DNA of 64,000 bases, from positions 124,001-188,000 of the forward strand of contig JAFTVF010000013.1 in assembly GCA_017465865.1 (NCBI GenBank), in the 5' to 3' direction. Origin of the DNA: Clostridia bacterium. GTDB taxonomy: Bacteria > Bacillota > Clostridia > Christensenellales > Borkfalkiaceae. Position 1 is the stretch's first letter. The number at the start of each line of letters is the position of its first letter. A program made the translations under genes and the position numbers. Below the pieces are notes generated by a model. It was not told where the DNA came from and ran no database searches. It was given only the letters and a program-made list of their open reading frames with translations. Shown in pieces: positions 6,755-55,462 of this stretch.

Positions 6755-7015
6755 GTGAATTGTGTTTGCCTACGGCAAACGCGATATACTGCGTGCGATA
6801 TAACTGCGTTGCGATATACTCGCTGTCGCTCGTGCGATATGCTTAGCGTTGCTAAGCGTTGTGGCTGTTATTTACAATTATTATTGTATAAATCTTACCG
6901 CTACGTTTTGGCGTACTTATACGACAAAACATATCGCGCCCGTTAGGGCATATCGCTTGCCACAGGCAAATATCGTGCCAAAGGCATATCGCGCCGTTAG
7001 GCTTTTCACTGGCGA
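6755..7015. repeat. Hairpin array A (gcgatat / atatcgc type)
   Basis: One gtgaattg linker (6755), then the palindrome GTTTGCctacGGCAAAC, then short palindromes separated by the linker gcgatat at about 6781, 6795, 6811 and 6834. The core at 6870-6895 is itself palindromic (ttacaattattattgtataa). To its right the inverted linker atatcgc recurs at about 6931, 6950, 6969 and 6986, separating GCCCgttaGGGC, TTGCCacaGGCAA, GCCaaaGGC and GCCgttaGGC. The array fills the gap between the stop codon of the ABC transporter (7024) and the terminator at 6702. No gene is present; frames here are chance. Closest relative in the window is array F. Confidence 0.85.
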
Positions 7016-7023
7016 TAGCCTAC

Positions 7024-8910
7024 TTATACAACTTGCTCCTGCGCTTCCGATTCGCGGATACGGCTGAGCCGTTCCAGCTCGCTGAACTTTCCGCCGAGCG
7101 CCATCAGTTCTTCGTACGTGCCGACTTCGACCATTCTACCCTCTTCCATCACGACGATCCTGTCGGCGTTTCGAATGGTGGAAAGACGGTGAGCCACGAT
7201 AAAGGTCGTACGCTCTTTCACAAGACGGTCGATGGCTTTTTGCACGTGGTATTCCGCAACGTTGTCGAGCGCGGAGGTTGCCTCGTCCATAATGAGAATT
7301 CGGGGATTGCGGATAAGCGCGCGCGCAATGCTCACGCGCTGTTTTTGACCGCCCGAGAGCTTGTCGCCGTGCTCGCCCACCTGCGAATCCAAGCCGTTTG
7401 GAAGCGAGGGTAAAAATTCGGGGATATCCGCGTCGGCAACGGCGCGCTGGAATTGTTCCTCGCTGTAATGATCGAGTCCGTAGGTGATATTCTCACGGAT
7501 CGTGCCCGAGAACAGAATACTGTTTTGAGGCACGACGGACAGGAAACGGCGGTAGCTTTGCATGGGGATCTCGTTGAGGGGTTTGTCGTCGATGAGTATT
7601 CTGCCCTCCGTCGGGGATAAAAGCCCGATGATCAAGTTCATTACCGTACTCTTGCCCGAGCCTGACGAACCGACGATCGCAATGCGTTCCCCTTGTTTTA
7701 CGTGCAGATCGAAGTCCTTGACGACGTTTTTGTCCTCGCCCGGATAGTGATAGGAAACGTTGCAAAAATCCACTTTGCCTTTGACGGAGCGGAGTTTTCT
7801 GCGCCCGTCGTCGCGTTCTACGTCCTCCGCGCAGACGATTTCGGACAGGGAATGTACCGCTTCTTTGCCCGTCATCAGCGAGGGATAGATATTGATAAGG
7901 GAAAGCACCGAACCGCTGATCGACGAGAACAACGATTGAAACAGCACGACCTCGCCCGCGGTAATGTAGCCTTTTAAGGCAAGGAACACGCAGAAGAACA
8001 GGCAAAGCCCCGACATTAACTGACCCGACGCCCACATCATCGAGCCGAAAATGCTGTGCGTTTTGTCGAGCTTCAAGCCCGCCCGCGTAACCGAATCGAT
8101 CTTCTCGTTTACCGCCGATTCTTCGGTTGCGACAAGTCCGTGCGCCTTGGTGAGCTGCATCATCTGCAAGGTCGTGGTGAGCTTGCTCGACAGCTTTTCG
8201 TTTTCCTTGCGGTATTCCGAGCTGTCTTTACGTATACGCTTGGAAAACAGGCGTTTGAGCAAGACGTTGATCGGGATAATCACCACAAAAAACAGCGTAA
8301 CACCGGGGCTTTTGAGAAGCGCGATCACCACGGATACGACAAGCCCGATGATATTCGGTATGTACGCTATCATATAGTTACGGTAATAGCCTTCTACGCT
8401 CTCGATGTCGCGCAGAAATTTCGACTGTATTCTGCCCTCTTCGATCTCCTTATGATAAGTGATCGAAAGGCGTTGTAATTTTCTTACCACGCCGCTTTTG
8501 ATTTCGGCGGTGGTGGTACGGATCATACGGTTGGTGATAGAAAGCCGCCAAGTCGTCGTCGGTACGTTTTGTAAAACGAGTACGGCAAGCAAGATCCCGT
8601 CGATAACCAGCCTCGTCATATACCCGTCGGGACGGACGGTGATCACGTCGATAACGTCGCTGGTGATCAAAGGCAAAATCCATACGGGCGAGGCTTGCAA
8701 AAGATAAATGAGCGTAGAATACAAGACCTGTACCCAATTCTTGCGTAACAGCTTTTGCATGAACAGCTCGTTATTTTCGCCCTGCTTGCGCTTTTTCTTT
8801 TTCCCGTCCTCGCTGAACAGCCATTCAAGGTCGGGAATTTTGTTGATGCTTCGGAGTTTCTCTTCGTCTTTCCGCCGTGGAACGGCTTTTTCGGAATTCT
8901 GTTTCGACAT
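7024..8910 (-). CDS. ABC transporter, fused permease and ATPase (exporter type)
   Basis: A 628-residue half-transporter. About 70 charged N-terminal residues precede six membrane segments (roughly residues 60-340) and a C-terminal nucleotide-binding domain with Walker A VGSSGSGKST, signature LSGGQKQR, Walker B ILIMDEATSALD and the switch histidine in VAHRLST. It should act as a homodimer exporting lipids, peptides or drugs across the cell membrane. The long charged N-terminus is unusual. A ribosome site (agaggtaatagt) precedes the ATG and a consensus promoter lies at 8977-9005. It is a single-gene unit; the substrate cannot be told from sequence. Confidence 0.93.
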   Translation of the reverse strand: MSKQNSEKAVPRRKDEEKLRSINKIPDLEWLFSEDGKKKKRKQGENNELFMQKLLRKNWVQVLYSTLIYLLQASPVWILPLITSDVIDVITVRPDGYMTRLVIDGILLAVLVLQNVPTTTWRLSITNRMIRTTTAEIKSGVVRKLQRLSITYHKEIEEGRIQSKFLRDIESVEGYYRNYMIAYIPNIIGLVVSVVIALLKSPGVTLFFVVIIPINVLLKRLFSKRIRKDSSEYRKENEKLSSKLTTTLQMMQLTKAHGLVATEESAVNEKIDSVTRAGLKLDKTHSIFGSMMWASGQLMSGLCLFFCVFLALKGYITAGEVVLFQSLFSSISGSVLSLINIYPSLMTGKEAVHSLSEIVCAEDVERDDGRRKLRSVKGKVDFCNVSYHYPGEDKNVVKDFDLHVKQGERIAIVGSSGSGKSTVMNLIIGLLSPTEGRILIDDKPLNEIPMQSYRRFLSVVPQNSILFSGTIRENITYGLDHYSEEQFQRAVADADIPEFLPSLPNGLDSQVGEHGDKLSGGQKQRVSIARALIRNPRILIMDEATSALDNVAEYHVQKAIDRLVKERTTFIVAHRLSTIRNADRIVVMEEGRMVEVGTYEELMALGGKFSELERLSRIRESEAQEQVV

Positions 8911-8976
8911 ACTATTACCTCTTGGCGAAACGCTCTATCCTCTTTCCAAAGATTTTTTCCTTTTCAGGTTGTCTGC

Positions 8977-9005
8977 ATTATAGCACACCCGTTCCGCGTT
9001 GTCAA
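8977..9005 (-). promoter_or_regulatory. Promoter of the ABC transporter gene
   Basis: Minus strand TTGACA (9005-9000), 17 bases, TATAAT (8982-8977). The leader is about 60 bases. Confidence 0.88.
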
Positions 9006-9068
9006 CGGTTGGAGCAAAATTTCTTGCAATAAAAAAAGGGATTGTACGTATTCGTTTTTTCGATAGTT

Positions 9069-9281
9069 TCACTCCACGGGCGTAAAACGGCGGTAGGTTA
9101 CCCCCTCGCGGGTTACTGTATCGTTCCACATCGCAAGCGGGCGCACCCAAGTTTCCCCCTCGCCGTACAAGGCGCGGTACACCACCATTTTTTCTTGCGT
9201 TTCCGAGTGTTTCGCAACGCAAAGCACTTCGTATTCTCCGCCCTTGAAATGGCGGTATTTCCCGATTTTGATCTCGTCCAT
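9069..9281 (-). CDS. DUF1653 family protein
   Basis: A 70-residue protein, normal length for the family. The characteristic block KYRHFKGGEYEVLCVAKHSE near the N-terminus and the later MVVYRALYGEGETWVRPL match DUF1653, a small all-beta domain of unknown function found alone or fused to NUDIX and other enzymes. The sequence aaggagtttgtt precedes the ATG. It lies between the ABC transporter and a divergent permease and shows no clear terminator. No function can be assigned. Confidence 0.85.
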   Translation of the reverse strand: MDEIKIGKYRHFKGGEYEVLCVAKHSETQEKMVVYRALYGEGETWVRPLAMWNDTVTREGVTYRRFTPVE

Positions 9282-9392
9282 AACAAACTCCTTGAAAATT
9301 TTATCGAATATTGCCCAAAAAAGATAGATTTTTTATGAAAAAAGTATTATAATAATTCCCGTTGTGAAAAAATACGAGGAGCGCAGTCGGAT

Positions 9393-10559
9393 ATGAGCGT
9401 ACACGCAAAACGGCATTTTCATTGGCATTTCCCCATACGGGCACTGCTCGGGCATTTTTTGGCGTTCGTGAAAAAGAACGTCGTTTTGTGCGTGGCGGTC
9501 GTCGCCGCTCTGCTTACTTCCTTTATCGTACCGCCCGACAAGGCGTATCTTGCGTATTTCGATTGGAAAACGCTGACCTGTCTTTTCTGCGTGCTTGCGG
9601 TCGTATGCGCGTTTAAGAATATCGATTTCTTTTTCGTGCTCGCAAAACAGATCGTCCGCGCTTTTAAGAATACGCGCGCCTGCGTACTTGCGCTTGCGTA
9701 CGTTACCTTTATCGGCTCGATGCTGATTGCCAACGATATGGCGCTTCTTACCTTTCTGCCCCTCGGATATTTCGTACTGTCCTCCACGGGCAAGAAAAAA
9801 TATATGGCGTTCACCTTTATTATGCAGAATATCGCCGCCAACCTCGGCGGTATGCTCACCCCGTTCGGCAACCCGCAAAATTTGTATCTGTACACGAAAT
9901 TCCATATCCCTACGGGCGAGTTTATGTTGGTGATGCTGCCGCCTTTCGTGCTCTCCGTCGCGCTCATCACCCTCAGCTGTTTCCTGTTCGTCAAAAAAGA
10001 ACCGTTGGAGATAGCGGACGAAAAAATCCGTCTTCCCAAATGGCGAACGATTGTATACGGAATTTTATTCGCCTTATCCATCGTGATCGTATTCCGTGTA
10101 ATTCCCTTTTGGATCGGTTTAATCGTTATTCCCGTCGCCCTGCTTTTCCTCGATAGAAAAGCCCTGAAAGACGTGGATTACGGGTTGCTGTTTACCTTCG
10201 TCGCGTTCTTTATCTTTGCGGGGAATATGTCGAGAATACCGCTTGTGGAAAAACTGCTCGGCTCGTTAATGACGAAACAGCCGTTGCTCGTGTCCGTACT
10301 CTCCTGTCAAGTCATCAGTAACGTTCCGTCCGCGATCCTTTTATCGCAATTCACGGGCGACTACGCGCCCTTACTTCTCGGCGTGAATATCGGCGGGGTG
10401 GGCACGCTGATCTCCTCGCTGGCGAGCCTGATTACCTTCCGTGAATACGCCTCGCACGACCGCGCGGGAACGAAGAAATATATCCTGCTGTTCTCGGCGT
10501 TCAATTTCGGGTTTTTGTTTCTCCTTACGGGAGTACAAATGTTGATCTTATATTGCTAA
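9393..10559 (+). CDS. SLC13/ArsB-NhaD type anion permease
   Basis: A 388-residue integral membrane protein with about 10 hydrophobic segments. The sequences FIGSMLIANDMALLTFLPL and ANLGGMLTPFGNPQNLYLY are the half-repeat signature of the ion-transporter superfamily that includes citrate/dicarboxylate carriers and arsenite pumps; the second half shows QVISNVPSAILLSQF and NIGGVGTLISSLASLI. It therefore probably moves an organic or inorganic anion coupled to sodium or protons. AGGAGCG lies upstream of the ATG, and a TATAAT at 9348-9353 with a weak -35 may drive it. It is monocistronic and ends at a strong terminator. The substrate is unknown. Confidence 0.82.
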   Translation: MSVHAKRHFHWHFPIRALLGHFLAFVKKNVVLCVAVVAALLTSFIVPPDKAYLAYFDWKTLTCLFCVLAVVCAFKNIDFFFVLAKQIVRAFKNTRACVLALAYVTFIGSMLIANDMALLTFLPLGYFVLSSTGKKKYMAFTFIMQNIAANLGGMLTPFGNPQNLYLYTKFHIPTGEFMLVMLPPFVLSVALITLSCFLFVKKEPLEIADEKIRLPKWRTIVYGILFALSIVIVFRVIPFWIGLIVIPVALLFLDRKALKDVDYGLLFTFVAFFIFAGNMSRIPLVEKLLGSLMTKQPLLVSVLSCQVISNVPSAILLSQFTGDYAPLLLGVNIGGVGTLISSLASLITFREYASHDRAGTKKYILLFSAFNFGFLFLLTGVQMLILYC

Positions 10560-10570
10560 CGGTAAAACTT

Positions 10571-10612
10571 ACGCCCTTTCGCAAAATCCTTGCGAAAGGG
10601 CGTTTTTTATTT
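10571..10612. terminator. Bidirectional terminator between the permease and argF
   Basis: Thirteen-bp stem acgccctttcgca/tgcgaaagggcgt followed by TTTTTTATTTT on plus. It also closes the arginine operon on minus. Confidence 0.88.
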
Positions 10613-10615
10613 TGC

Positions 10616-11524
10616 TTATTTCCCGCCGAGGCATTTCACGAGGACTGCCTTTTGCGCGTGCAGTCTGTTTTCCGCTTCGTCGAAAATCTCGTTTGCGTGC
10701 GCTTCGAATACTTCCGCCGTGATCTCCTCTTCGCGGTGCGCGGGCAGACAGTGCAATACCATCGCGCCGTCGCTCGCTACGCTCATTACCTTTGGGTTTA
10801 CCTGATAGCCTTGGAATATCTTCTTTCTTTCCTCCGCTTCGCCCTCTTGACCCATAGACGCCCATACGTCGGTATACAGAACGTCCGCGCCTTTCGCCGC
10901 TTCCAAAACGTCCTCGGTGCATGTGAATTTGCCGTTCTTTTTCGCCCAAGCCATGATCTCCGCGTCAGGCTCGTAGCCTTTCGGGCAAGCCACTGCGACT
11001 TCCATACCCATTTTGATACCGCCGACGATCAACGAGTTCGTCATATTATTGCCGTCGCCGATATAGCAGAGCTTATTCCCCGCGATCGCGCCTTTGTATT
11101 CGCGAATGGTCATAAGGTCGGCGAGCACCTGACAGGGATGACAGTAGTCGGTAAGCCCGTTGATGATGGGGATAGAGCCGTGTTTTGCGAGGTCTTCGAC
11201 TTCCTTTTGCGCAAAGGTACGGATCATGATCCCGTCGAGATAGCGCGAAAGCACGCGCGCGGTGTCCTCGACAGGCTCGCCTCTGCCGATCTGTAAATCG
11301 CGGGAGCTTAAAAACAGCGCGCTGCCGCCGAGGTCGTACATACCCACTTCGAAAGATACGCGGGTACGCGTAGAGGATTTTTCAAAGATCATACCCAGCG
11401 TTTTCCCTGCCAAAAGGTGGTGTTTGATCCCGTTCTTTTTCTCGAATTTGAGTTGATCTGCCAAGTTCAGGATCTCGTTGATCTCTTTCGCCGACAAATC
11501 CATAAGTTTCAATAAATGTTTCAT
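10616..11524 (-). CDS. argF: Ornithine carbamoyltransferase
   Basis: A 302-residue enzyme, normal length, joining carbamoyl phosphate and ornithine to make citrulline. The carbamoyl-phosphate motif FEKSSTRTRVSFE (about 46-58), the HPCQVLADLMTI block and the ornithine-loop HCLPAHREEEI are all intact. It is the last gene of the arginine operon. The ATG at 11524 overlaps the argD stop (ATGA), and a ribosome site (ggaagtaat) lies inside argD, so translation is probably coupled. A longer frame starting at 11575 lies within argD and is not used. A biosynthetic rather than catabolic role is inferred from the operon. Confidence 0.96.
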   Translation of the reverse strand: MKHLLKLMDLSAKEINEILNLADQLKFEKKNGIKHHLLAGKTLGMIFEKSSTRTRVSFEVGMYDLGGSALFLSSRDLQIGRGEPVEDTARVLSRYLDGIMIRTFAQKEVEDLAKHGSIPIINGLTDYCHPCQVLADLMTIREYKGAIAGNKLCYIGDGNNMTNSLIVGGIKMGMEVAVACPKGYEPDAEIMAWAKKNGKFTCTEDVLEAAKGADVLYTDVWASMGQEGEAEERKKIFQGYQVNPKVMSVASDGAMVLHCLPAHREEEITAEVFEAHANEIFDEAENRLHAQKAVLVKCLGGK

Positions 11525-12684
11525 TCCGATATTACTTCCTTTAAGATTTTTATTGCCGATTTCAATTCCGTCCAAGGGATATTCAGGGCAGGGAGCAGCC
11601 TTACTTTCTGTTTCGCTTTAATGACCAGCACCCCTTTTTCCATACACTTTGCAATCACTTCTCCCGCGTCCTTTTCACAGTCCACGCCGATCATAAGCCC
11701 TTTGCCCGAAACGCTTTTTACGCCTTTCGCGTTTTCCAGCTCCGCAAAGATATACGCGCTCTTTTCACGCACTTCCGCGAGTAGTTTTTCATCGATACGG
11801 CGCAGGATACTCAACGCGCCCGCGCAAGCGACGGGGTTACCGCCGAACGTCGAGCCGTTCAGCCCCGCCGTAAACAAACCCTCTGCCTTTTCGCCGAGCA
11901 TGGTCGCGCCGATCGGCAAACCGCCGCCAAGACCTTTCGCCGTCGTTACGACGTCGGGCGTTACGCCGTAGTCCATAAACGCGTACAGCGCTCCCGTTCT
12001 GCCGTTGCCCGTCTGTACCTCGTCGATGACCAGCAGTAAATCTTCTTGCTTTGCAAGCTCCGCCACGCCTTTTACGTAGTCTTTATCAAGCGCCGTAACG
12101 CCGCCCTCGCCTTGCACGAGCTCGATCATAATTCCGCAGCATTTGTGTTCCTTGACGAGCCGACGCATATCCTCGATATCGTTCGCCTGCGCGAATACGA
12201 AGCCCTCCGTCATGGGCGTGAAATGCTCGTGGAAAACGTCCTGTCCCGTTGCCGAAAGGGTGGTGATCGTTCTGCCGTGGAAGCTGTTTTTCAGGGTTAT
12301 AATCGTGTAATACTCCTTGCCCTTTTTCAGTTCGCCGTATTTACGGGCGGCTTTGATCGCACATTCGTTGGCTTCCGCGCCCGAGTTGGAAAAGAACACC
12401 TTTTTCAGCCCCGTACGCGTGCAAAGCTCCTTTGCAAGCAACGCGCAGGGCTCGCTGTAATACAAATTAGAGGTGTGCTGAATCTTATCCAGCTGTGCGA
12501 TCACGGCGTTTTTCCAGTCGGTATCGCCGATCCCGAACCCGTTGACGGCGATCCCCGTGCCGAGGTCGATATATTCTTTCCCCGCCGCGTCGCAAACGCG
12601 CGAGCCTTTGCCCGAAACGAGCTGCACGGGAAAGCGCGCGTACGTGCCCGCGATATATTGTTTGTCAAGTTCGATAACGTTCAT
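11521..12684 (-). CDS. argD: Acetylornithine aminotransferase
   Basis: A 387-residue PLP enzyme of aminotransferase class III. It transfers an amino group from glutamate to N-acetylglutamate semialdehyde, giving N-acetylornithine. The pyridoxal lysine lies in VVTTAKGLGGGLPIGA (about 240-255), IDEVQTGNGRTG holds the cofactor-binding aspartate, and NSGAEANECAIKAARK is the phosphate-binding region. It starts 25 bases after argB and overlaps argF by 4 bases at its end. In some bacteria the same enzyme also serves lysine synthesis, which cannot be judged here. Confidence 0.96.
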   Translation of the reverse strand: MNVIELDKQYIAGTYARFPVQLVSGKGSRVCDAAGKEYIDLGTGIAVNGFGIGDTDWKNAVIAQLDKIQHTSNLYYSEPCALLAKELCTRTGLKKVFFSNSGAEANECAIKAARKYGELKKGKEYYTIITLKNSFHGRTITTLSATGQDVFHEHFTPMTEGFVFAQANDIEDMRRLVKEHKCCGIMIELVQGEGGVTALDKDYVKGVAELAKQEDLLLVIDEVQTGNGRTGALYAFMDYGVTPDVVTTAKGLGGGLPIGATMLGEKAEGLFTAGLNGSTFGGNPVACAGALSILRRIDEKLLAEVREKSAYIFAELENAKGVKSVSGKGLMIGVDCEKDAGEVIAKCMEKGVLVIKAKQKVRLLPALNIPWTELKSAIKILKEVISE

Positions 12685-12709
12685 ACTATATACCTTCTAT
12701 GCAAACCGC

Positions 12710-13585: not shown

Positions 13586-13603
13586 AATCTTGATTTCCTT
13601 TGT

Positions 13604-14818: not shown

Positions 14819-14847
14819 AATTTTTTCCTTTTACTATTTTTCTGTGT

Positions 14848-17232: not shown

Positions 17233-17430
17233 GTGAATTGACGGCTACTCCGTCGTGAATTTTCGCTAACGCTCAGTGAATTGGGCTTCGCCCGTGAATT
17301 GCGTTGCTTTGCAACGCGTTGATTGAATTATTCCACAACGCAACGCTGTGCGTTGCATTTCACGAAAAACGAAGTTTTTCATTTCACGCGCTATAAGGCG
17401 CATTTCACGCAACCGTAGGTTGCAATTCAT
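17233..17430. repeat. Hairpin array B (gtgaattg / catttcac type)
   Basis: Left arm: linker gtgaattg at 17233 and in three further, partly varied copies, alternating with the palindromes ACGGctactCCGT, a ttcgctaacgctca unit, GGGCttcGCCC and CGTTGCtttGCAACG. Core: about 24 AT-rich bases around gattgaattattcc. Right arm: CAACGCtgtGCGTTG, GAAAAACgaaGTTTTTC, GCGCtataaggCGC-like and GCAACCgtaGGTTGC, separated by the inverted linker atttcac. It occupies the gap between argG and argH and starts 6 bases beyond the argG stop codon. The left arm closely matches array E. Confidence 0.88.
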
Positions 17431-17435
17431 TTTTC

Positions 17436-29709: not shown

Positions 29710-31840
29710 TCACTCCCTCCAAAACGCTCAGAGCGTTTCTCTTCGCGATCTCCTCGACGAGCTCTTTGACCCATCTGGTTTTCCGCGCCGAGGTTACTTT
29801 CACGCGCATCGGATACCGCGCGTATTTCTTGCTGTTCGATACGTCGGTGTAAATATATTTCGTATTCTCAAAATCGGTGGGCGGTAACGCAAGATATACG
29901 TTCAGGGTTTTTCCGCGAATGGCAAACCGCGCCACGGGCACGTTTCCGCATTTGAACGTCCGCCCTTTCTTGCCCTCGATCACGCGTACGCCTTTCAAGG
30001 CTTTCAATGCGTTTTCAATGTCCGCATAACGCGCTTTCACTTCCTCTCTCGCATCCGCGAGCTTTTCCGCAAAGCTACGCATATCCCGCGCACCAAAGCC
30101 CGCAAATCTCGATACCGCAACTTCTTCCGTTACGGGTTCGTCCTCGTTAGGGATTTCCTCTACCGCAAATTCGCGCCAGCCTAAACCGTATTTTTCTACG
30201 ATATCCGTGATCAGTTCTTTCGTCCAGCGCACCTGCCGAGCCGAGGTTACTTTCACGCGCATGGGGAACGATTTCGCAGATTTTACCTGCGTTTCGTCCT
30301 TGAACACGTACTTGCTTTCCGTATATTCCGCAGGGTCTAACCCGAGCGAAGCGTTCAGGGTCTTTCCGCGGATCGCGCACCGCGCCACCGCCACTCTGCC
30401 ACGACGGAACGTACGGTATTTCCTGCTGTCGCGCACCGTAAGGTCTTCGATATGACGGAGATGCTCTTCGATCTCCGCGTATTCGGCTTTGAGCTCCTCG
30501 TCCGCGTCCGCGAGCTTCTCCGCAAAGCTACGCATATCCCGCGCGCCAAAGCCCGCAAATCTCGATACCGCAACTTCTTCCGTTACGAATTCTTCTTCGT
30601 TAGGGATTTCCTCTACTGCAAATTCACGCCAGCCTAAACCGTATTTTTCTACGATATCCGTGATAAGTTCTTTCGTCCAGCGCACCTGCCGAGCCGAGGT
30701 TACTTTCACGCGCATGGGGAACGCTTTCGCAGATTTTACCTGCGTTTCGTCCTTGAATACGTACTTGCTTTCCGCGTATTCCGCAGGGTCTAACCCGAGC
30801 GAAGCGTTCAGGGTCTTTCCGCGGATCGCGCACCGCGCCACCGCCACTCTGCCCCGACGGAACGTACGGTATTTCCTGCTGTCGCGCACCGTAAGGTCTT
30901 CGATATGTCGCAGGTGCTCTTCGATCTCCGCGTATTCGGCTTTGAGCTCCTCGTCCGCGTCCGCGAGCTTCTCCGCAAAGCTGCGCATATCCCGCGCTCC
31001 AAAGCCCGCGAAAGGATGCGTTTGAGGAATTTCTTCCGTTTCGGGAAGGGGTTCCTCGGCATTGTCGAGCAAGCCGAGCACCGCCAAACGCTTGCGTTTT
31101 TCTTTCTCGATGAGTTTTTCCACAATCGGCGTGGCAATCATGCTGACCACGATGAGGAAAATACAAAGCCAACCCGCAGGCGATTGCATAAAGGTAACGA
31201 AACTACCGATAAAAGGCACTCTTTGCCCACGGTAGATCGCTTTCATCTGCGAATACAGCACGGGGAAGCGGTCGGGATTTTCTACGTTATCACCCTGCAA
31301 CAGGAAATGCCGATGCTCGGGATGTCTTTCGTTGGGCTCTTCGATACCGACGATACGGTGTAACACCATCATATCGTCTACCTCGTACAATACAACGTCG
31401 TACAGCTCCAACTCGAACTCATCGGGTACTTGATACACCAAAATCAAATCGAACGTTTGAATTTGGTCGTTGATATCGTTTTCGTAGAGATAGGTATTTT
31501 TTTCGTGTTTTTTTGACATGGAACCGCTCTGCACTACTTTGATCGTAGGCGAGGTTGCGGAATACGCGTTTTTTTGGCAGTTGATATACGTGGAAAAGCC
31601 GAAAAAGCCCAAAAGAACGGCGCAAAAAATCACGGTAACGATCGTATCGATCACTCCGCACTTGTGCTTTTTCTTCAAAGCCTTTTCATATTCCGATATA
31701 ATTTTTTCATCCTCTGCGCCGTGGCGGATCAACCGTAAACTAAGTTTTACGATATAGGTCAGCATCACCACGGAAAGTACCGTCAATAAGACAAATACGA
31801 TCAAACAGAGTAAGAATACGTAAATATCATACTGCGACAT
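29699..31840 (-). CDS. SipW-type signal peptidase I with three C-terminal repeat domains
   Basis: A 713-residue protein. Two N-terminal membrane segments (about 5-32 and 65-90) precede a signal-peptidase domain: VVQSGSMSK carries the catalytic serine, and YDVVLYEVDDMMVLHRIVG has histidine in place of the usual lysine, as in SipW and ER-type enzymes; FLLQGDNVENPD is the last box. A third membrane segment (WLCIFLIVVSMIATPIV) is followed by about 450 probably cytoplasmic residues: three copies of a 151-residue unit, the first two nearly identical. The unit is not recognised. SipW is normally about 190 residues. ATG at 31840 is preferred; TTG at 31861 is possible and has a slightly better ribosome site. 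Confidence 0.82.
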   Translation of the reverse strand: MSQYDIYVFLLCLIVFVLLTVLSVVMLTYIVKLSLRLIRHGAEDEKIISEYEKALKKKHKCGVIDTIVTVIFCAVLLGFFGFSTYINCQKNAYSATSPTIKVVQSGSMSKKHEKNTYLYENDINDQIQTFDLILVYQVPDEFELELYDVVLYEVDDMMVLHRIVGIEEPNERHPEHRHFLLQGDNVENPDRFPVLYSQMKAIYRGQRVPFIGSFVTFMQSPAGWLCIFLIVVSMIATPIVEKLIEKEKRKRLAVLGLLDNAEEPLPETEEIPQTHPFAGFGARDMRSFAEKLADADEELKAEYAEIEEHLRHIEDLTVRDSRKYRTFRRGRVAVARCAIRGKTLNASLGLDPAEYAESKYVFKDETQVKSAKAFPMRVKVTSARQVRWTKELITDIVEKYGLGWREFAVEEIPNEEEFVTEEVAVSRFAGFGARDMRSFAEKLADADEELKAEYAEIEEHLRHIEDLTVRDSRKYRTFRRGRVAVARCAIRGKTLNASLGLDPAEYTESKYVFKDETQVKSAKSFPMRVKVTSARQVRWTKELITDIVEKYGLGWREFAVEEIPNEDEPVTEEVAVSRFAGFGARDMRSFAEKLADAREEVKARYADIENALKALKGVRVIEGKKGRTFKCGNVPVARFAIRGKTLNVYLALPPTDFENTKYIYTDVSNSKKYARYPMRVKVTSARKTRWVKELVEEIAKRNALSVLEGVNEK
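30068..30973 (-). repeat. 453-bp near-identical direct repeat inside the SipW-like gene
   Basis: The sequence cgcaaagctacgcatatccc at 30068 recurs at 30521 and, with one change, at 30974: a period of exactly 453 bp (151 codons). The units 30068-30520 and 30521-30973 differ at only a handful of bases by eye; the unit downstream towards the protein C-terminus is diverged. This marks a recent duplication or gene conversion and a site prone to copy-number change. Confidence 0.9.
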
Positions 31841-34880: not shown

Positions 34881-35160
34881 CAACGCACAGCGTTGCAGTG
34901 AAATGCAACCTTGCGTTTGCGTGAAATGCGCCTGTCGGTGCGTGAAATGAAAAACTTCGTTTTTCGTGAAATGCAACGCACAGCGTTGCGTTGTGGCAAT
35001 ATTATAACACCTTGGTAGGCTTTACAAGTATACTTGTATAAATTCTACAATAACGCATTTCGGAGAAATGCATTTCACGACGACGCAAGCCGTCATTTCA
35101 CGCGCGGTACGCGCATTTCACGAATTGCGACAGCAATTCATTTCACGGGCGCAAGCCCCC
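34881..35160. repeat. Hairpin array C (gtgaaatg / catttcac type)
   Basis: Left arm palindromes CAACGCacaGCGTTG, CAACCttgcGTTTG, CGCCtgtcggtGCG, AAAAACttcGTTTTT and CAACGCacaGCGTTG are separated by gtgaaatg. The core (about 34990-35055) contains an extended -10 promoter and the palindrome acaagtatacttgt followed by ataaatt. Right arm palindromes CATTTCggaGAAATG, GACGacgcaagcCGTC, GCGCGgtaCGCGC, GAATTGCgacaGCAATTC and GGGCgcaaGCCC are separated by atttcac. It lies between fakA and recG. Confidence 0.88.
35001..35027 (-). promoter_or_regulatory. Possible recG promoter inside the core of array C
   Basis: Minus strand TGTTATAAT (extended -10, about 35009-35001) with TTGTAA 15 bases upstream. The short spacer makes it uncertain. 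Confidence 0.5.
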
Positions 35161-37924: not shown

Positions 37925-38578
37925 TTACGCTTTCAAACTCGCGATCATTGCCGCTCTATCCTCGGCTTTGAACACCGCGCTGCCCGCGACGATCACGTTC
38001 GCGCCCGCGGCTTTGATTTCCGCGACGTTTTCCGCCGTTACCCCGCCGTCGATCTCTAAATCGATCTCCTTACCGCTCGCGTCGATGATCGCGCGGATTT
38101 CACGAAGTTTATCGAGTGCGGACGGAATGAATTTCTGACCGCCAAACCCGGGGAATACGCTCATGACCAGCACCATATCGCAAAGCAAAATCACGTCTTT
38201 GATCTTGTCCACGGGGGTATCGGGATTGATGACCGCGCCGCATTTCACGCCCGTGGATTTGATAAGTTCAAGCACTTCTTTCAAATTGTCTTGACACGCC
38301 TCGTAATGCACGGTGATCATATCCGCGCCCGCTTTTGCAAAGCGTTCGACGTATTTTTCGGGGTGTACGATCATCAAATGGCAATCGAGGGGGAGCTTTG
38401 TGATCTTACGCAGGTCCTCTACCATTTTAATCCCGAACGTGATGTTGTTGACGAACACGCCGTCCATCACGTCGCAGTGCACGAGATCCGCACCGCTTTT
38501 TTCGAGGGACTGTACCTCTTCGCCCATTTTTGCAAAGTTTGCCGACAGGATCGACGGCGCGATTTTAACGTTTTTCAT
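37925..38578 (-). CDS. rpe: Ribulose-phosphate 3-epimerase
   Basis: A 217-residue TIM-barrel enzyme that interconverts ribulose 5-phosphate and xylulose 5-phosphate. KIAPSILSANFAKMGEEV starts the barrel, VHCDVMDGVFVNNITFG carries a metal histidine and the catalytic aspartate, CHLMIVHPEKY and VMSVFPGFGGQKF follow, and LEIDGGVTAENV holds the second aspartate. The start at 38578 has AAGGAG 7 bases before it and overlaps the upstream ygjV-like gene by 14 bases. It is the last gene of the housekeeping operon. Confidence 0.96.
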   Translation of the reverse strand: MKNVKIAPSILSANFAKMGEEVQSLEKSGADLVHCDVMDGVFVNNITFGIKMVEDLRKITKLPLDCHLMIVHPEKYVERFAKAGADMITVHYEACQDNLKEVLELIKSTGVKCGAVINPDTPVDKIKDVILLCDMVLVMSVFPGFGGQKFIPSALDKLREIRAIIDASGKEIDLEIDGGVTAENVAEIKAAGANVIVAGSAVFKAEDRAAMIASLKA

Positions 38579-40222: not shown

Positions 40223-40420
40223 GGAAGTCGAGGAACTCAGTTCCTCGTGGGGCGCAGGGGCAACGCCCCGCTTTTTAGCCTAAATATAAGCAAGCTCTGC
40301 TTGCGTTTACGCCTTTTGGCGTTGATCGCTTCGCGATATTGCGCAACCGAAGGTTGCTTTCAGGGGGGCTTTCTTTTGCAGGGCTACGCGCCCTGCACCG
40401 CGTAAGAGGCAATGCCTCTT
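40223..40420. repeat. Palindrome run G between rsmB and rlmN
   Basis: A run of about eight short palindromes: GAGGAACtcaGTTCCTC, GGGGCgcaggggcaacGCCCC, AAGCAagcTCTGCTT-like, ACGCCttttGGCGT, TCGCttcGCGA, GCAACCgaaGGTTGC, GCAGGGctacgcgCCCTGC and AAGAGGCaatGCCTCTT. There is no constant linker as in the other arrays, but the hairpin GCAACC..GGTTGC is shared with arrays B and E. The last hairpin overlaps the rsmB stop codon. No gene is present. Confidence 0.8.
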
Positions 40421-48459: not shown

Positions 48460-48513
48460 TCTTTTTTTCCTTTTTTGTAAACTTGTTTTTAGTCATTAAA
48501 AACGTTTTTCAAT

Positions 48514-48543: not shown

Positions 48544-48550
48544 TCAAAAT

Positions 48551-48564
48551 ACACCGTTTGGTGT
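48551..48564. promoter_or_regulatory. Operator 2 (acaccgtttggtgt)
   Basis: Perfect palindrome ACACC-GTTT-GGTGT directly upstream of the xre start, where it would cover that gene's promoter. Centres of the two operators are about 29 bp apart, close to three helical turns. Confidence 0.75.
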
Positions 48565-48575
48565 AAAATAATTAT

Positions 48576-48788
48576 ATGGAGAACAAATTTATCCTCTCTT
48601 TTGCCCAAAACCTAAAAGATCTGATAGGAGATATGTCGATTTCCGAATTTGCGAGAAAGGTAGACATTCCGCAACAAACAATCTCCCGTTATTTGCTATG
48701 CCAACGCGAGATCACTTTAACAAATCTTTGTAAAATAGCCGACTATTTCGATGAGGATATTGATTATTTGCTCGGAAGAAAAGATTGA
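48576..48788 (+). CDS. XRE-family HTH regulator
   Basis: A 70-residue single-domain protein. SISEFARKVDIPQQTISRYLLCQ is a helix-turn-helix of the Cro/C1 type, followed by REITLTNLCKIADYFDEDIDYLLG, the usual last helices. It probably binds as a dimer the two ACACC-type palindromes in the 117-bp gap to the divergent lipoprotein gene, repressing it and itself; that is inferred from geometry. No ribosome site is clear. It has its own terminator shared with ligA. Confidence 0.88.
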   Translation: MENKFILSFAQNLKDLIGDMSISEFARKVDIPQQTISRYLLCQREITLTNLCKIADYFDEDIDYLLGRKD

Positions 48789-48798
48789 TCGCAAAAAA

Positions 48799-48827
48799 CA
48801 AGGCTCCGCCACTTGCAGAGCCTTGTT
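48799..48827. terminator. Bidirectional terminator between xre and ligA
   Basis: Nine-bp stem ACAAGGCTC/GAGCCTTGT with an 11-base loop and A/T tracts on both sides. Confidence 0.85.
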
Positions 48828-50789
<1,962 letters not shown>

Positions 50790-50792
50790 TTA

Positions 50793-51013
50793 GTGAATTG
50801 CAAACTGTGTTTGCGTGAATTGAAATGGATTTCGTGAATTGCCCTTTCAGGGCGTGAATTGCACGCCGACGGCGTGCGTTATGGTTATTATTTACAATTA
50901 AAATTGTATAAATCTTCCCTCAACGCGTTTTGCAAAAACGCATTTCACGACGGCGTAGCCGTCATTTCACGGGCGCAAGCCCATTTCACGAATTGCGTAG
51001 TAATTCATTTCAC
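50793..51013. repeat. Hairpin array D (gtgaattg / atttcac type), overlapping the pcrA stop
   Basis: Left arm: CAAACtgtGTTTG, AAATggaTTTC-like, CCCTttcAGGG and CACGCCgacGGCGTG, separated by gtgaattg. The core (about 50880-50915) holds the palindrome ttacaattaaaattgtataa. Right arm: a GCGttttgcaaaaaCGC unit, GACGGCgtaGCCGTC, GGGCgcaaGCCC and GAATTgcgtagtAATTC, separated by atttcac. The last linker, read on minus as gtgaaatg, contains the TGA stop codon of pcrA. No gene is present. Confidence 0.88.
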
Positions 51014-53412
51014 TGTATTATCGTCAACGGCGCTAAGCTCGCGGATAATTGCTTGATCCCAAACCCCTCGAACGCGATATCGAGGATCATATTCGCCCCC
51101 GTACCGCGCACGCCTACGATCCTGCCGTTACCGAACTTCGGATGCCGAACGCCCACGCCGATACGGAAACCGCTCAAATCCTTGCCCCCCGCGGTCGGTC
51201 TTGTCGCCTTGCCTACCCCGCCGTATACGAACCCGCCGCTCTTTTGCGCGGTCGTATTGCGGTTGCCGTAAGTCGATCCGCTATACGAGGCGTTCCCGCC
51301 GTTCCAAGCCGAACGGGTAACGCCCGAATTGCTCCGCGCGCTATCGTTATAGCTCTTGTTATAACCGCCGTAACCACCGAAGCTCGTCCGTCTGCCGCCG
51401 TATTCGTTATCCGAATACCTGCCCCCGCCGTACGCCGAATTGCCGTAGCTTTCGGGGTCGTCGTAGCCGTCGTAGCCAAAGCTCGGACGGCGCGCTTCCT
51501 TGGGCAATTCCACTTCGGAAGCAAGCTCTTTCAAAAACCGCGACCGCGCCGTCGGCTCGCGTTTACCGTATAAGTATCGGCTCTTCGAACGGGTCATATA
51601 CAGCCGTTCTTTCGCGCGGGTGATCGCCACGTACATAAGCCGACGCTCTTCTTCCATATCGTCGTCGCTTTCCACCGCGCGGGATACGGGCAGGATATTT
51701 TCTTCCAAACCGCAAATGAACACGCAACGGAATTCCAAGCCCTTGACCGAATGTACCGTGGCAAGCGTTACGTAATTCCCGTCGTCCATATCGTCCGTGT
51801 CCGAGGCCAGCGTTACTTGGTTGAGATAATCGGTAAGGCTCGCGCCGGGGTTGAGCTTACAGTACTCCTCTACGGAATTAAGAAATTCGTCGATATTCGC
51901 GCGCTTATTGATACTCTCGTCGCTCTCGTCCGCGTACGCCTCGCGCATGCGCGTGTCTGCAATTATCTTTTTCACCAGCTCGTTGACGGGCAGATCCTGA
52001 CTGTCGATAATCCATATCTTTACCAAATCTCGGAAACCCACGAGTTTTTCCCGCGTCGCGCCCGTAAACCCGATCTCGTCAATATCCAAAAGGGCGTCGT
52101 ATACCGAGCTTTCGTTTTGAAAGGCGTAATCCTGCAACGCGTCCACCGTCTTCGCGCCGATACCGCGTTTGGGGAAATTGATAATACGCAGTGCCGCTTC
52201 GCTGTCGAACGGGTTGTTAACGAGCCGTAAATACGCGAGCAAATCCTTAATTTCTTTTCTCTCATAGAACTTAAACCCGCCGAACACCTTGTAGGGTATC
52301 CCGTCGCCCGTGAACTCTTGTTCGAACGAGCGCGTGAGCGCGTTCAAACGCATTAAAATCGCGAAATCGGAGTATTTATAGCCCTGACGGAGCAAGCCTG
52401 CGATCGTCTGCGCGATATACCGCGCCTCACCGCTTTCCTCGTCCGCTTCGTATACCTTTGCGGGCGCGCCCTCGTCGTTCTCCGTCCAAAGGGTCTTGTC
52501 TTTGCGGTGTCCGTTGTTTTTGATGACGGTGTTCGCGAGCTTTAAGATCCGTTTCGTTGAACGGTAATTGCGTTCGAGCTTGAACACTTTCGCGTTTTTG
52601 AAATCCTTTTCAAAATGTAAAATATTCTCAATCTTCGCGCCCCGCCAACCGTAAATGGACTGGTCGTCGTCGCCCACGGCAAACAGGTTGCCGTGCACCG
52701 AGGCAAGCGAACGGACGATCTCGTACTGTACCGCGTTGGTGTCTTGGAACTCGTCCACGAGAATATACCGAAACCGACCGCCAAGATAGTTTCGCGCATC
52801 CTCGTTGGTTTTAAGAAGATTGCGCGTTTCATTCAAAAGATCGTCAAAATCCAGCGCGTTGTTCTCGCGCAGGTGTTTTTGATACCGACGGTAGACCTTT
52901 ACGATCTCGTCTATTTGGTATTCGCCCGCGTATTCCTCGGCGTAGCGGTCGGGATCAAAGCCCAACATCTTCGCATTCCCGATATGGTATTTCACCGATT
53001 TTAACAGCTTTTCGTCGTCAAAATCACATTCCTGAAAGGATTTTTTGATAATGTTATTTCTCTCCGTTTCGCTGTAAATGGAGAAGTTTGAGCTAATCCC
53101 TACTTCGCCGGAATACATACGCAAAATCCGCACGCACATGCTGTGGATCGTGCATACCCAACTACGCGAAACGTCCACGATCCGACCCAAGCGTTCTTTC
53201 ATTTCGTTGGCGGCTTTGTTGGTGAACGTGATCGCGAGAATTGCCTCCGCAGGCACGCCCTTTTCCTCGATCAGATACGCGATACGCGAGGTAAGCACCC
53301 GCGTTTTACCGCTACCTGCGCCCGCAAGCACGAGCACAGCCCCCTCCGTTTGCAGAACGGGCTTGATCTGTTCGTCGTTTAATTTGTCTAAAAGTTCGTC
53401 GATTTCTATCAT
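51010..53412 (-). CDS. pcrA: DNA helicase PcrA/UvrD with low-complexity linker
   Basis: An 800-residue superfamily 1 helicase. Motifs: LAGAGSGKTRVLTSRIAYL (about 25-43), ILAITFTNKAA, DEFQDTNAVQYE, VGDDDQSIYGWRGA, LERNYRS, VHSVKGLEFRCVF and YVAITRAKERL. Between the helicase core and a C-terminal Tudor-like domain (HPKFGNGRIVGV) lies a stretch of about 110 residues rich in G, Y, S and N, longer and more repetitive than in typical PcrA. It acts in repair and replication. The -10 box lies 9 bases before the ATG, so the mRNA is nearly leaderless. Confidence 0.95.
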   Translation of the reverse strand: MIEIDELLDKLNDEQIKPVLQTEGAVLVLAGAGSGKTRVLTSRIAYLIEEKGVPAEAILAITFTNKAANEMKERLGRIVDVSRSWVCTIHSMCVRILRMYSGEVGISSNFSIYSETERNNIIKKSFQECDFDDEKLLKSVKYHIGNAKMLGFDPDRYAEEYAGEYQIDEIVKVYRRYQKHLRENNALDFDDLLNETRNLLKTNEDARNYLGGRFRYILVDEFQDTNAVQYEIVRSLASVHGNLFAVGDDDQSIYGWRGAKIENILHFEKDFKNAKVFKLERNYRSTKRILKLANTVIKNNGHRKDKTLWTENDEGAPAKVYEADEESGEARYIAQTIAGLLRQGYKYSDFAILMRLNALTRSFEQEFTGDGIPYKVFGGFKFYERKEIKDLLAYLRLVNNPFDSEAALRIINFPKRGIGAKTVDALQDYAFQNESSVYDALLDIDEIGFTGATREKLVGFRDLVKIWIIDSQDLPVNELVKKIIADTRMREAYADESDESINKRANIDEFLNSVEEYCKLNPGASLTDYLNQVTLASDTDDMDDGNYVTLATVHSVKGLEFRCVFICGLEENILPVSRAVESDDDMEEERRLMYVAITRAKERLYMTRSKSRYLYGKREPTARSRFLKELASEVELPKEARRPSFGYDGYDDPESYGNSAYGGGRYSDNEYGGRRTSFGGYGGYNKSYNDSARSNSGVTRSAWNGGNASYSGSTYGNRNTTAQKSGGFVYGGVGKATRPTAGGKDLSGFRIGVGVRHPKFGNGRIVGVRGTGANMILDIAFEGFGIKQLSASLAPLTIIQ

Positions 53413-53421
53413 AACGCTATC

Positions 53422-53450
53422 ATTATAACATACTCCGCTTTTTTTTGCAA
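53422..53450 (-). promoter_or_regulatory. Promoter of pcrA, placed for a nearly leaderless transcript
   Basis: Minus strand TTGCAA (53450-53445), 17 bases, TATAAT (53427-53422). ATG at 53412. Confidence 0.85.
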
Positions 53451-53471
53451 GTGCTACCGCCTTTCCCAAAA

Positions 53472-53507
53472 CAAAAAAAGCATGATACTTTTTACGAAGT
53501 ACCATGC
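53472..53507 (-). terminator. Terminator between array E and pcrA
   Basis: Eleven-bp stem GCATGGTACTT/AAGTATCATGC (one G-U pair), followed on minus by TTTTTTTG. Confidence 0.85.
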
Positions 53508-53510
53508 AAA

Positions 53511-53711
53511 GTGAATTGAACGCTATGAAGCGTTCGTGAATGTTCGCTAACGCTCAGTGAATTGGGCTTACGCCCGTGAATTGCATTTCTCCGAAATGCG
53601 TTGCGGTATAAATTTTACAATAATGCAACGCTATGCGTTGCAATTCACGCGCCGACAGGCGCAATTCACGAAATTTATTTCAATTCACGCAACCGCAAGG
53701 TTGCAATTCAC
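53511..53711. repeat. Hairpin array E (gtgaattg / caattcac type)
   Basis: Left arm: AACGCtatgaaGCGTT, a ttcgctaacgctca unit, GGGCttacGCCC and CATTTCtccGAAATG, separated by gtgaattg (one copy varied). Core: about 25 bases, ggtataaattttacaata. Right arm: CAACGCtatGCGTTG, GCGCCgacaGGCGC, GAAATttATTTC and GCAACCgcaaGGTTGC, separated by aattcac. It lies between two terminators, downstream of the PH-TM gene pair and upstream of the pcrA promoter. The left arm is close to array B. Confidence 0.88.
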
Positions 53712-53743
53712 AAAAAAAGAGCAACCACGCTTTGTGTTTGCTC
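53712..53743 (-). terminator. Terminator of the PH-TM paralogue operon
   Basis: Ten-bp stem GAGCAAACAC/GTGGTTGCTC (one G-U pair), followed on minus by TTTTTTT. Confidence 0.88.
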
Positions 53744-53763
53744 CTTTTTATGTAGACTTTTTC

Positions 53764-54315
53764 TTAGCCTCTGTACTCGGTGATGATCGCACCAAGCTCT
53801 TCTACGATCTCTCTTGCAACGAGGTTGTTGAGCTTGATCTTCATCGCCGCCGCGGGTTTCTTCTTCGCAAGCAAACGCGAAGCCGCAAGCGTAAGGGATT
53901 CACCCTCGATTTCGGTAGAAGTTACCTTTGCCATAAACTCGCCTTGGTTCAAACGGATAATACCTTTGATTACCAGATATCCACCAGCGAATACCGCAGC
54001 ACACATAATGAGTACACCTGCACCACCAAGCTTCATACCCAAAATAGCACCGACAACGACAATCAGGATACCGAAAATAATCAGTAAGAATGCGCCGAGC
54101 TTGGAAACGGTTTCATGCGTACCGTAAACGGATTTCGCAAGGTCCATAGGCATTTCCTGACGAGTGATCTTTCTCTCGTTTTCTGCGGTATAAACGATTC
54201 TTTTGTTCGTTACCGTAAGATTGCACTGCGTGTGAAGTTTGTTGAAAAACTTGCCCGATTTACCGGTCGCGTAGTCCCAATCTTTGATGATTTGTTCATC
54301 TTTTGCCAATACCAT
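53764..54315 (-). CDS. PH-like domain membrane protein, paralogue 1
   Basis: A 183-residue protein similar along its whole length to the next gene upstream. The N-terminal 65 residues (MVLAKDEQIIKDWDYATG, then LTVTNKRIVYTAENERKI) resemble a bacterial PH-type domain; two membrane segments follow (about 70-95 and 98-118), then a soluble strand-rich domain ending VAREIVEELGAIITEYR. The shared opening MVLAKDE and shared C-terminus EIVEE.GAII mark them as tandem duplicates. TAGGAGG lies before the ATG, 25 bases after its paralogue. Function unknown; probably exposed to the cytoplasm. Confidence 0.7.
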   Translation of the reverse strand: MVLAKDEQIIKDWDYATGKSGKFFNKLHTQCNLTVTNKRIVYTAENERKITRQEMPMDLAKSVYGTHETVSKLGAFLLIIFGILIVVVGAILGMKLGGAGVLIMCAAVFAGGYLVIKGIIRLNQGEFMAKVTSTEIEGESLTLAASRLLAKKKPAAAMKIKLNNLVAREIVEELGAIITEYRG

Positions 54316-54340
54316 AATTTACCTCCTATGGTACAACCGA

Positions 54341-54880
54341 TTATCTGTTTTCTGCAATGATCGCGCCGATCTCTTCTACGATCTCTCTTGCTACGTCGTT
54401 GTGAATTTTAACCTTCATAACGGGCGCCTGTCTCTTACCAAGCATACGGCTTGCGGAAACTGCCATCGATTCGCCTTCGATACCGCAGGTCGTGATCGTC
54501 AGCGAGAACGCGCCTTGGTTCAAACGGGTATAACCCAACCAAACGACAACTGCGCCAAGCACGAGTGCAACAACGCCCAAAATGGTCATAACGCTGCCCT
54601 GCAACATAAGCACGATGCCTGCAACGGCGAGGATAACGCCGAGGATCATGAGCATGATCGCGCCGAGTTTGGAAACGGTTTCGTGGGACGAATAAACGGA
54701 TTTAGCCGCTTTCAGGGGGATTTCCTGACGAGCGATCTTTCTCTCGTTTTCCGCGGTGTAGATAACGCGCTTGTTCGTTACCGCGATCTTTGCTTCCGTG
54801 TGAAGCCCGAACAGCAAACCGGTTTTACCGCTTGCATAGTTCCAGTCTTTGATGAGTACTTCATCTTTTGCCAATACCAT
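54341..54880 (-). CDS. PH-like domain membrane protein, paralogue 2
   Basis: A 179-residue protein, first gene of the pair. It has the same plan as paralogue 1: MVLAKDEVLIKDWNYASG, a block IAVTNKRVIYTAENERKIARQ identical in large part to its neighbour, two membrane segments (about 72-95, 97-117) and a soluble C-terminus. In the soluble part IEGESMAVSASRMLGKRQ matches IEGESLTLAASRLLAKKK in paralogue 1. AAGGAGAAAAGTGTT gives the ribosome site. A promoter lies about 165 bases upstream. Function unknown. Confidence 0.7.
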   Translation of the reverse strand: MVLAKDEVLIKDWNYASGKTGLLFGLHTEAKIAVTNKRVIYTAENERKIARQEIPLKAAKSVYSSHETVSKLGAIMLMILGVILAVAGIVLMLQGSVMTILGVVALVLGAVVVWLGYTRLNQGAFSLTITTCGIEGESMAVSASRMLGKRQAPVMKVKIHNDVAREIVEEIGAIIAENR

Positions 54881-55045
54881 AACACTTTTCTCCTTGTTAT
54901 ATAAATTTTTTTATAATACGGCGTTATCGCCGTTATTACCATATTCGCCGCCGTTTGCCGATAGCACCGATTTCGCGATATTTTCACGGGAAATTTTCGA
55001 CAATCTTTCACAGCTTTGGCACAATTTTCTTATGCTTTCGACATA

Positions 55046-55074
55046 ATTGTACAACATTCTCATTTTTTTGTCAA
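55046..55074 (-). promoter_or_regulatory. Promoter of the PH-TM paralogue operon
   Basis: Minus strand TTGACA (55074-55069), 17 bases, TACAAT (55051-55046). It leaves a leader of about 160 bases containing a hairpin AATACGGCG..CGCCGTTATT near 54915-54940. Confidence 0.82.
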
Positions 55075-55120
55075 GCAATCTGAAAACAAATATCGCCTAA
55101 AATATAAAATTTTACAAATG

Positions 55121-55146
55121 AATAAAAAAAGCCCCCTTGCGGGGGA
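55121..55146 (-). terminator. Terminator after array F
   Basis: Stem CCCCCGC/GGGGGC with a short loop, followed on minus by TTTTTTTATTC. It ends the transcript of the gene at 55467 after array F. Confidence 0.8.
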
Positions 55147-55162
55147 GAAAAGGAGCTGTGTG

Positions 55163-55462
55163 GTGAATTGCAACTTTGCGGTTGCGTGAATTATGTTTGC
55201 CTATGGCAAACGCGATATACTGACGTGCGATATAACTGCGTTGCGATATACTCGCTAACGCTCGTGCGATATGCTTGCTTCGCAAGCGTTGTGGCTGTAT
55301 TTTATAAACATTTCCACTACGTTTTGGCTTGTTTACAAGACAAAACATATCGCGCCCGTCAGGGCATATCGTTTGCCAAAAAGCAAATATCGCGCCAACG
55401 GCATATCGCTACTATGCTGAGCGCTAGCGAAAATTCACGAATTGCGACAGCAATTCAATTCA
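55163..55462. repeat. Hairpin array F (two nested linker layers)
   Basis: From the outside in: gtgaattg, CAACtttgcgGTTG, gtgaatta, GTTTGCctatGGCAAAC, then gcgatat linkers separating a short GACGT/GCGTT stretch, CTCGCtaacgctcg and CTTGCttcGCAAG; a core ggctgtattttataaac; then TTTTGgcttgtttacaagaCAAAA, atatcgc linkers separating GCCCgtcaGGGC, TTTGCcaaaaaGCAAA and GCCaacGGC; and finally the outer inverted linker aattcac with GAATTGCgacaGCAATTC. Inner and outer linkers are thus nested symmetrically. It starts 4 bases beyond the stop codon of the gene at 55467. Confidence 0.88.

Follow-up and report, generated by a model that had tools for sequence, protein, structure and literature searches.

What kind of intergenic element keeps its spacer constant while its hairpins vary, and what carries such elements through a genome? 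The question is raised by a 64,000-nucleotide stretch of a Clostridia bacterium (assembly GCA_017465865.1, contig JAFTVF010000013.1, positions 124,001 to 188,000; here called the window), in which six arrays share one plan. On inspection, linker and hairpin alternate up to an AT-rich core, and beyond the core hairpin and linker alternate again with the linker inverted; all six elements hold direct 7-nt repeats that are inverted at their two ends. We consider it probable that these arrays are dispersed, mostly gene-less relatives, resembling miniature inverted-repeat transposable elements (MITEs), of elements that combine heptamers with a gene for an S23 protein (S23/IVP, PF05635), and that S23 binds them and probably spreads them in trans. 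What is new is a heptamer rule tied to S23 genes, of which the array linker is one instance.

Six of the seven arrays of the original prediction were recovered by direct reading, as one family with a fixed linker and inverted symmetry; the seventh, a run of palindromes, has no linker and a de novo detector is silent there. The detector was supplied with no sequence and looks for flush hairpins separated by the same 7-nt spacer within one mismatch. It found seven chains in the window, every one within the six arrays, and none in 10 dinucleotide shuffles, the comparison that the original prediction had itself proposed, and a chance origin is thereby excluded. The window linkers are GTGAATT/GTGAAAT or GCGATAT; they are constant within the window as described, but since the hairpins begin and end flush with them their length is exactly 7 nt and not 7-8 bases. 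Among fetched relatives and pattern matches the spacer is 7 nt in 155 of 160 chains (6 nt in three, 8 nt in two), a biased set in which many loci were fetched by GTGAAWTG or by the Gut-1 model discussed below and a few chains, e.g. L194 and L204, are other repeats. As linkers the sequence-free detector reported GTGAATT, GTGAAAT, GTGATAT, GTTATAT, GTGAAGT, GCGATAT, GCGAGAT, ATGAAAT, ATGAATT and TCGATAT: the sequence changes by family across genomes, while the 7-nt length stays constant. Arms in other genomes are also tandem or diverging, and the arm is therefore the module. The hairpins vary while the spacer is conserved, which, as had been argued, separates the arrays from repetitive extragenic palindromic (REP) sequences; they are not unique, however, and return as position-specific alleles. 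The core has GTTGTGG-like sequence at one edge and CCACAAC/CAATAACG-like sequence at the other, an outermost frame of GTGAAWT and AWTTCAC is common in GCGATAT elements, and the combined length of the six elements is about 1.4 kb.

The arrays are dispersed insertions. At least 49 are present in the 1.42-Mb draft source genome (72.7% complete), the number that is left from 50 linker clusters in the stretches read when the irregular 38097-38248 of the window is dropped. With a relaxed linker, the commonest arm sizes are 4+4 (17 GTGAAWT-family and eight GCGATAT-family cases among 48 source-genome pairs counted). Two whole copies, L114 and L131, are near-identical over ~240 bp within different flanks and are a recent pair of copies. 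Filled and empty sites, a comparison also suggested at the outset, can be set side by side at two housekeeping loci. argH follows argG in 27 of 30 loci, and among these 27 the source genome alone carries an array of the element 2 type; 25 of the 26 genus-mates with this gene order have no such array in the gap, several holding other inserts, and one (G006; L275) carries a GTGAAGT heptamer family there. It is the absence from 25 of 26 comparable sister species that identifies the arrays as insertions. At yloV, where recG is next in 29 of 30 loci, the source genome has an element, and in G023 the gap holds a partial GTGAAGT arm. Short dispersed copies with terminal inverted repeats were found as in a classical MITE; inspection of the printed ends by eye showed no target-site duplication, and there is no closely alignable empty site. 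Among the matches listed, the named array-bearing hosts are largely animal-gut Clostridia, including Christensenella and Candidatus Coproplasma, and the same set also contains unrelated tandem repeats from other phyla. Other inserts in these gaps, judged by eye, are a GDSL-like hydrolase open reading frame (ORF) between argG and argH in several species (L265, L266, L269, L279) and, in the yloV-recG gap of G029 (L294), an ORF that we take to be DUF559-like, lying between TTCTCC/GGAGAA hairpins.

The lead to S23 came from arm pairs that are widely spaced (seven in total). In one of them, L226, the core carries an S23/IVP gene, whose product is a four-helix-bundle protein and matched 2RLD as the only solved structure; L220 was also read, and by eye no mobility genes were seen between the arms in the ORFs listed for L176 and L237. 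S23 genes lie inside the core at L226/L322, L319, L321 and L335, the first three at what appears by eye to be one orthologous site. Window-type linkers stand beside S23 in relatives, GTGAATT at L322 and L321 and GCGATAT at L331 and L337. PF05635 was found in 17 of 61 genomes. Gut-1 (RF01706), an Rfam family that covers one arm of the window elements, was matched in 14 of these 17 and in 11 of the 44 others (Fisher test, 8e-5), or in 13 of 16 against 12 of 45 when G005, whose single match is below the family cut-off, is reassigned. In the same order PF05635 is present in 75 of 297 genomes.

The association holds at the level of single loci. Of 135 S23 loci (27 from the 61 genomes, 28 + 80 from the list of the order) 134 gave an ORF and L332 gave none by the hidden Markov model, whose seed excluded L330, L332 and L333; the controls were 54 argG/yloV loci, with source-genome loci, L261, L303, L305 and L311 left out. 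Strict hairpin chains lie within 450 bp of 41 of the 134 S23 genes, against one of the 54 controls. A lag scan of the same 134 loci returned 7 as best period in 33, 14 in two and 8 in one, against one control at period 9 and none at 7; simple base shuffles gave none. Among the 93 chain-less S23 loci, plain tandem 7-mers were common in the 30 that were read, often with opposite orientations on the two sides. The hairpin and tandem sets are disjoint, and their union takes in 74 of 134 S23 loci against one of 54 controls. On plasmids (25 records found, 15 read) the best period is 7 in 13 loci and 14 in two, with hosts in Cyanobacteria, Spirochaetota, Bacteroidota, Chloroflexota and Clostridia; viral contigs with S23, some of them near-identical, show period 7 or 14 in 12 of 15. 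In random windows from six of those plasmids, 20 of 600 reach the weakest plasmid score and five of 600 stand at score 14. We also considered, on account of the exact 7-nt length, that linkers could be target duplications of serial tiny insertions; this is not favored because S23 loci also carry 7-mers in plain tandem. As a separate observation, plain tandem GTGAAAY-like heptamers occur at L155, L157, L159, L187, L202 and L242, on contigs of Gallionella, Ignavibacteria, Nitrosomonadales, Desulfococcaceae and Flavobacterium, with no S23 ORF in the stretch examined.

Both the sequence of the heptamer and the type of array follow the S23 protein more closely than the host. For 45 proteins with a known linker, S23 distance and linker distance correlate with r 0.49, the best of 5000 permutations reaching 0.16, and r is 0.48 for pairs from different host families only (833 pairs, p 2e-4). 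When linkers at most one mismatch apart are counted as shared, 28 of 41 close S23 pairs from separate host families share theirs; among distant pairs the figure is 51 of 627 across families and six of 129 within one host family. On the S23 tree (116 columns, many forks open) the hairpin or tandem state changes three times, against a shuffled mean of 24.6, and nearest S23 neighbors agree on array type in 75 of 77 cases with host families mixed. The Mantel test took in 45 of 46 loci and the tree 77 of 79, short rows being left out.

Such co-variation would suit any binding role, and S23 might instead be a regulator whose dispersed regulon has the arrays as operators or mRNA leaders, those upstream of S23 being autoregulatory. 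Strict chains lie 5' of S23 in 37 of the 134 loci and 3' in 10, and by eye the window arrays are near likely ribosome-binding sites of other genes. However, the insertions at housekeeping operons differ between sister species, some S23 genes sit between two arms, and arrays are kept in some hosts with no detected S23. We therefore regard a regulon as unlikely and favor dispersed relatives of S23-heptamer elements.

One arm of the element was already in print, so the claim that no described family matches was partly wrong. Gut-1 was described as three hairpins joined by GUGAAAU, rated RNA 'Y', not cis-regulatory, and reported from human gut only (Weinberg et al. 2010, PMC2864571, in the part accessible to us). 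It corresponds to half of the element, and the accessible part of that paper makes no mention of the inverted partner, the core, the other linkers or a link to S23. Gut-1 was matched in 25 of the 61 genomes, source genome included, with 0 to 52 matches per genome; one of six window matches and eight of 25 source-genome matches reach the gathering score of 50 bits in the covariance model, and the remainder are lower. Every arm could then be a transcribed, structured non-coding RNA that acts as RNA, the copies being gene duplicates. The model fits single arms, the published rating agrees, and hairpin pairing persists under sequence change, with internal mismatches on the structured strand G-T in 10 cases and A-C in three. 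Yet what is repeated is in most cases a pair of inverted arms with a core, the structured strand is opposite between the two arms, and the linker tracks a protein gene.

The hairpin loops also suit DNA better. On the AATTCAC-sense strand, which in the usual element points away from the core, the loops of 445 distinct linker-hairpin pairs are G..A in 206, A..A in 99, T..T in 17, T..C in 10 and other in 113, and the pattern spans linker families. Triloops (n=205) are cGNAg in 83 cases and cANAg in 50, against 6 and 9 on the complement strand; tetraloops (n=119) are cGNNAg in 53, gCNNGc in nine, cGNABg in eight and other in 49. The third base of GNNA is a purine in 28 and a pyrimidine in 29, which is no purine preference, unlike GNRA. 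Terminator-like controls are unbiased (triloops, n=57, G..A 4 and T..C 4; tetraloops, n=106, 13 and 13). GNA and GNNA loops are unusually stable as DNA mini-hairpins (PMC4686876, accessible part), which points to single-stranded DNA as the likely folded form. Energy models find the outward strand of the tetraloops more stable in 84 of 119 cases against 7 with DNA parameters and in 61 of 119 against 20 with RNA parameters, but barely separate the triloops, and the energy evidence is weak. Many hairpins are related by descent, and the loop bias favors DNA over RNA without proving it. Thus, a function of every arm as RNA seems to us unlikely.

Two candidate cutting enzymes, Y1 transposase and reverse transcriptase, show no association with the arrays. 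In REP doublets forming hairpins (REPINs) and bacterial interspersed mosaic elements (BIMEs), dispersed extragenic inverted hairpin pairs are likewise non-autonomous and have a protein partner in trans, the REP-associated tyrosine transposase (RAYT), but the hairpin sequence is fixed there (PMC3116915, accessible part). A Y1/RAYT transposase of the HUH type that moved the arrays would be in line with strand-specific hairpin loops, inverted arms, the lack of a visible target duplication and a Y1 ORF in the window. However, Y1_Tnp is no more frequent in genomes that have Gut-1 (seven of 25) than in those that lack it (11 of 36; p 1.0), G045 has 52 Gut-1 matches and no Y1_Tnp, and next to the Y1 ORF stands a weak match to STnc490 (E 0.002, under the gathering score). 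A conserved hairpin sequence and an associated RAYT/Y1, as in REP, REPIN and BIME, were both not found, co-occurrence being absent, and mobility of this kind is highly improbable. The Y1 ORF and STnc490-like match are neighbors as they presumably are in IS200, and the pair has the appearance of a common IS200 copy. S23 is related to Avd, which works with the reverse transcriptase of diversity-generating retroelements, and S23 could have a partner of the same kind; a weak S23-like match, L332, adjoins a reverse transcriptase in G005. This reading is very unlikely as well, with reverse transcriptase in five of 25 genomes with Gut-1 and eight of 36 without, none in G045, and no heptamers seen by eye at L332. 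The L332 ORF (G005:C10:98052), placed in the style of a diversity-generating retroelement, is a contrast case to the S23-heptamer loci.

S23 and heptamers have met in print before. In the 23S rRNA intervening sequence of Coxiella the S23 ORF is preceded by GACAGAT heptamers, two or three in tandem; this element is called selfish, lies within rRNA and is excised by RNase III (PMC4990558, accessible part). With short tandem heptamers just upstream of an S23 ORF it resembles S23-heptamer elements and, from outside our sample, fits the link; it differs in that the accessible part mentions neither hairpins between the heptamers nor dispersed gene-less copies. This was the only paper found to join the two, in a search that left most subscription papers uncovered. 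The window copies lie between protein genes and none is in a 23S rRNA gene, so they are not 23S rRNA intervening sequences. Short tandemly repeated repetitive (STRR) sequences and small dispersed repeats within heptamers were reportedly described by Mazel in 1990 and Elhai in 2008, and small cyanobacterial hairpins are said to be embedded in heptamers. Intergenic heptamers are documented as TAACTGA in Beggiatoaceae, Cyanobacteria and Bacteroidetes (PMC4679880) and as GGGAATC in Xanthomonas and GGGGAYT in Nostoc (PMC4692102), with 186 GGGAATC patterns in Xanthomonas campestris and S23 unnamed in the accessible part. They are direct intergenic 7-mers like our arrays, but regular arms with one hairpin per heptamer do not appear in the accessible parts of these papers, and the words S23, four-helix and intervening are absent from both main texts. 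Xanthomonas campestris, where GGGAATC occurs, is also the source of the solved S23, a pentameric torus (PMC4990558, accessible part).

A number of points weigh against S23 as the partner of the arrays. There is no S23 ORF in the window, in or beside any element, and no PF05635 match in the source draft at its stated completeness; G030, at 93% completeness, also lacks a PF05635 match although Gut-1 is matched 39 times there, and it does have Y1 and reverse transcriptase matches. If S23 is the partner, it need not be present now in these two genomes. The window copies have linker and core ends in common with S23-bearing elements (by eye), and as they lack S23 we term them gene-less relatives, not full members. 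No signal was seen in three detectors at 46 of 134 S23 loci, some of which are contig ends or degenerate repeats by eye, and the loosest detector (gapped exact 7-mers) was also positive in four of 54 controls. Among the matches listed, two of 110 pattern-match stretches of genome contigs hold an S23 ORF. The order-level controls are two genes from one genus, there is no independence among sequences from metagenome-assembled genomes or among related copies, and hand assignment entered the Mantel and tree tests, for five linkers and for the labels of five hairpin loci (L319, L321, L331, L338 and L341). Left and right linkers do not co-vary (odds ratio 0.29, p 0.04); this counts against selected pairing between arms, and a 'fishbone' pairing of linkers was rejected as the A/T position does not vary in pairs. 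We know of no catalytic activity of S23, and it is not a known transposase.

We nevertheless hold to the S23-heptamer relationship, in which the heptamer would be the defining unit of the family and the S23 gene of other members lies within the core or just downstream of the array. Around many S23 genes the heptamers are either plain or have a hairpin set flush into every border between them. An S23 oligomer would bind the heptamers. Flush hairpins folding out of a single strand would bring the heptamers side by side and might so recreate the plain tandem array, and S23 acting in trans, together with host replication or recombination functions, may spread or maintain the copies.

Table 1. Arrays, Gut-1 matches and further features of the window.
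Feature	Position	Strand	Details
Element 1, GCGATAT family	6755..7009		outer GTGAATT at 6755; left arm GCGATAT x4 (6781-6840); core
Element 1, right side	6931-6992		ATATCGC, plus one more mutated copy; truncated outer TTCAC
Element 2, GTGAAWT family	17233..17430		argG-argH gap; 4+4 linkers, last truncated
Element 3, GTGAAAT family	34881..35155		yloV/fakA-recG gap; 4+4 linkers; long core with TTTACAAGTATACTTGTATAAAT; one additional hairpin beyond each end
Element 4	50793..51013		ligA-pcrA gap; left GTGAATT x4, right ATTTCAC x4
Element 5	53511..53711		GTGAATT/AATTCAC, 4+4 including one mutated linker; short core
Element 6, nested symmetry	55163..55463		outer GTGAATT x2/AATTCAC x2; inner GCGATAT x4/ATATCGC x4 (one mutated)
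Linker-free palindrome run	40223..40420		outside the array family (by reading; de novo detector silent)
Gut-1, element 2 right arm	17352..17432	-	46.1 bits, below gathering
Gut-1, element 3 left arm	34896..34977	+	53.5 bits, above gathering (50 bits)
Gut-1, element 3 right arm	35067..35148	-	48.7 bits, below gathering
Gut-1, element 4 right arm	50937..51015	-	48.1 bits, below gathering
Gut-1, element 5 right arm			weak, 33 bits
Y1 (IS200-type) ORF	3718-4212	-	
STnc490-like RNA match	4222-4346		
Direct repeats	29746-31012		453 bp apart, ~three copies, within a 720-aa ORF
Two tandem ORFs	53764-54880		183 and 179 aa; DNA repeated, probable paralogues

Palindromes of the linker-free type, e.g. GAGGAACTCAGTTCCTC, also have counterparts in relatives: by eye, like units with an adjoining GACTTCC stand in the yloV-recG gaps of G022 and G024 (L288, L302).

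More tentatively, and with somewhat less than even confidence, we propose that heptamer repeats and S23/IVP proteins together constitute a single widespread, unrecognized class of mobile system in several phyla, in which a ring-shaped four-helix-bundle protein with no known nuclease or transposase domains reads 7-nt words, and of which Gut-1 hairpin arrays, the cyanobacterial and xanthomonad heptamers and the 23S rRNA intervening sequences may all be forms. Three orphan observations, the Gut-1 'RNA', the heptamer repeats of unknown origin and the S23/IVP proteins of unknown function, would then have a common partner. The proposal makes a concrete and cheap prediction, namely that every S23 binds its own heptamer, and the system shows the structure of arrays following the tree of a protein across hosts.

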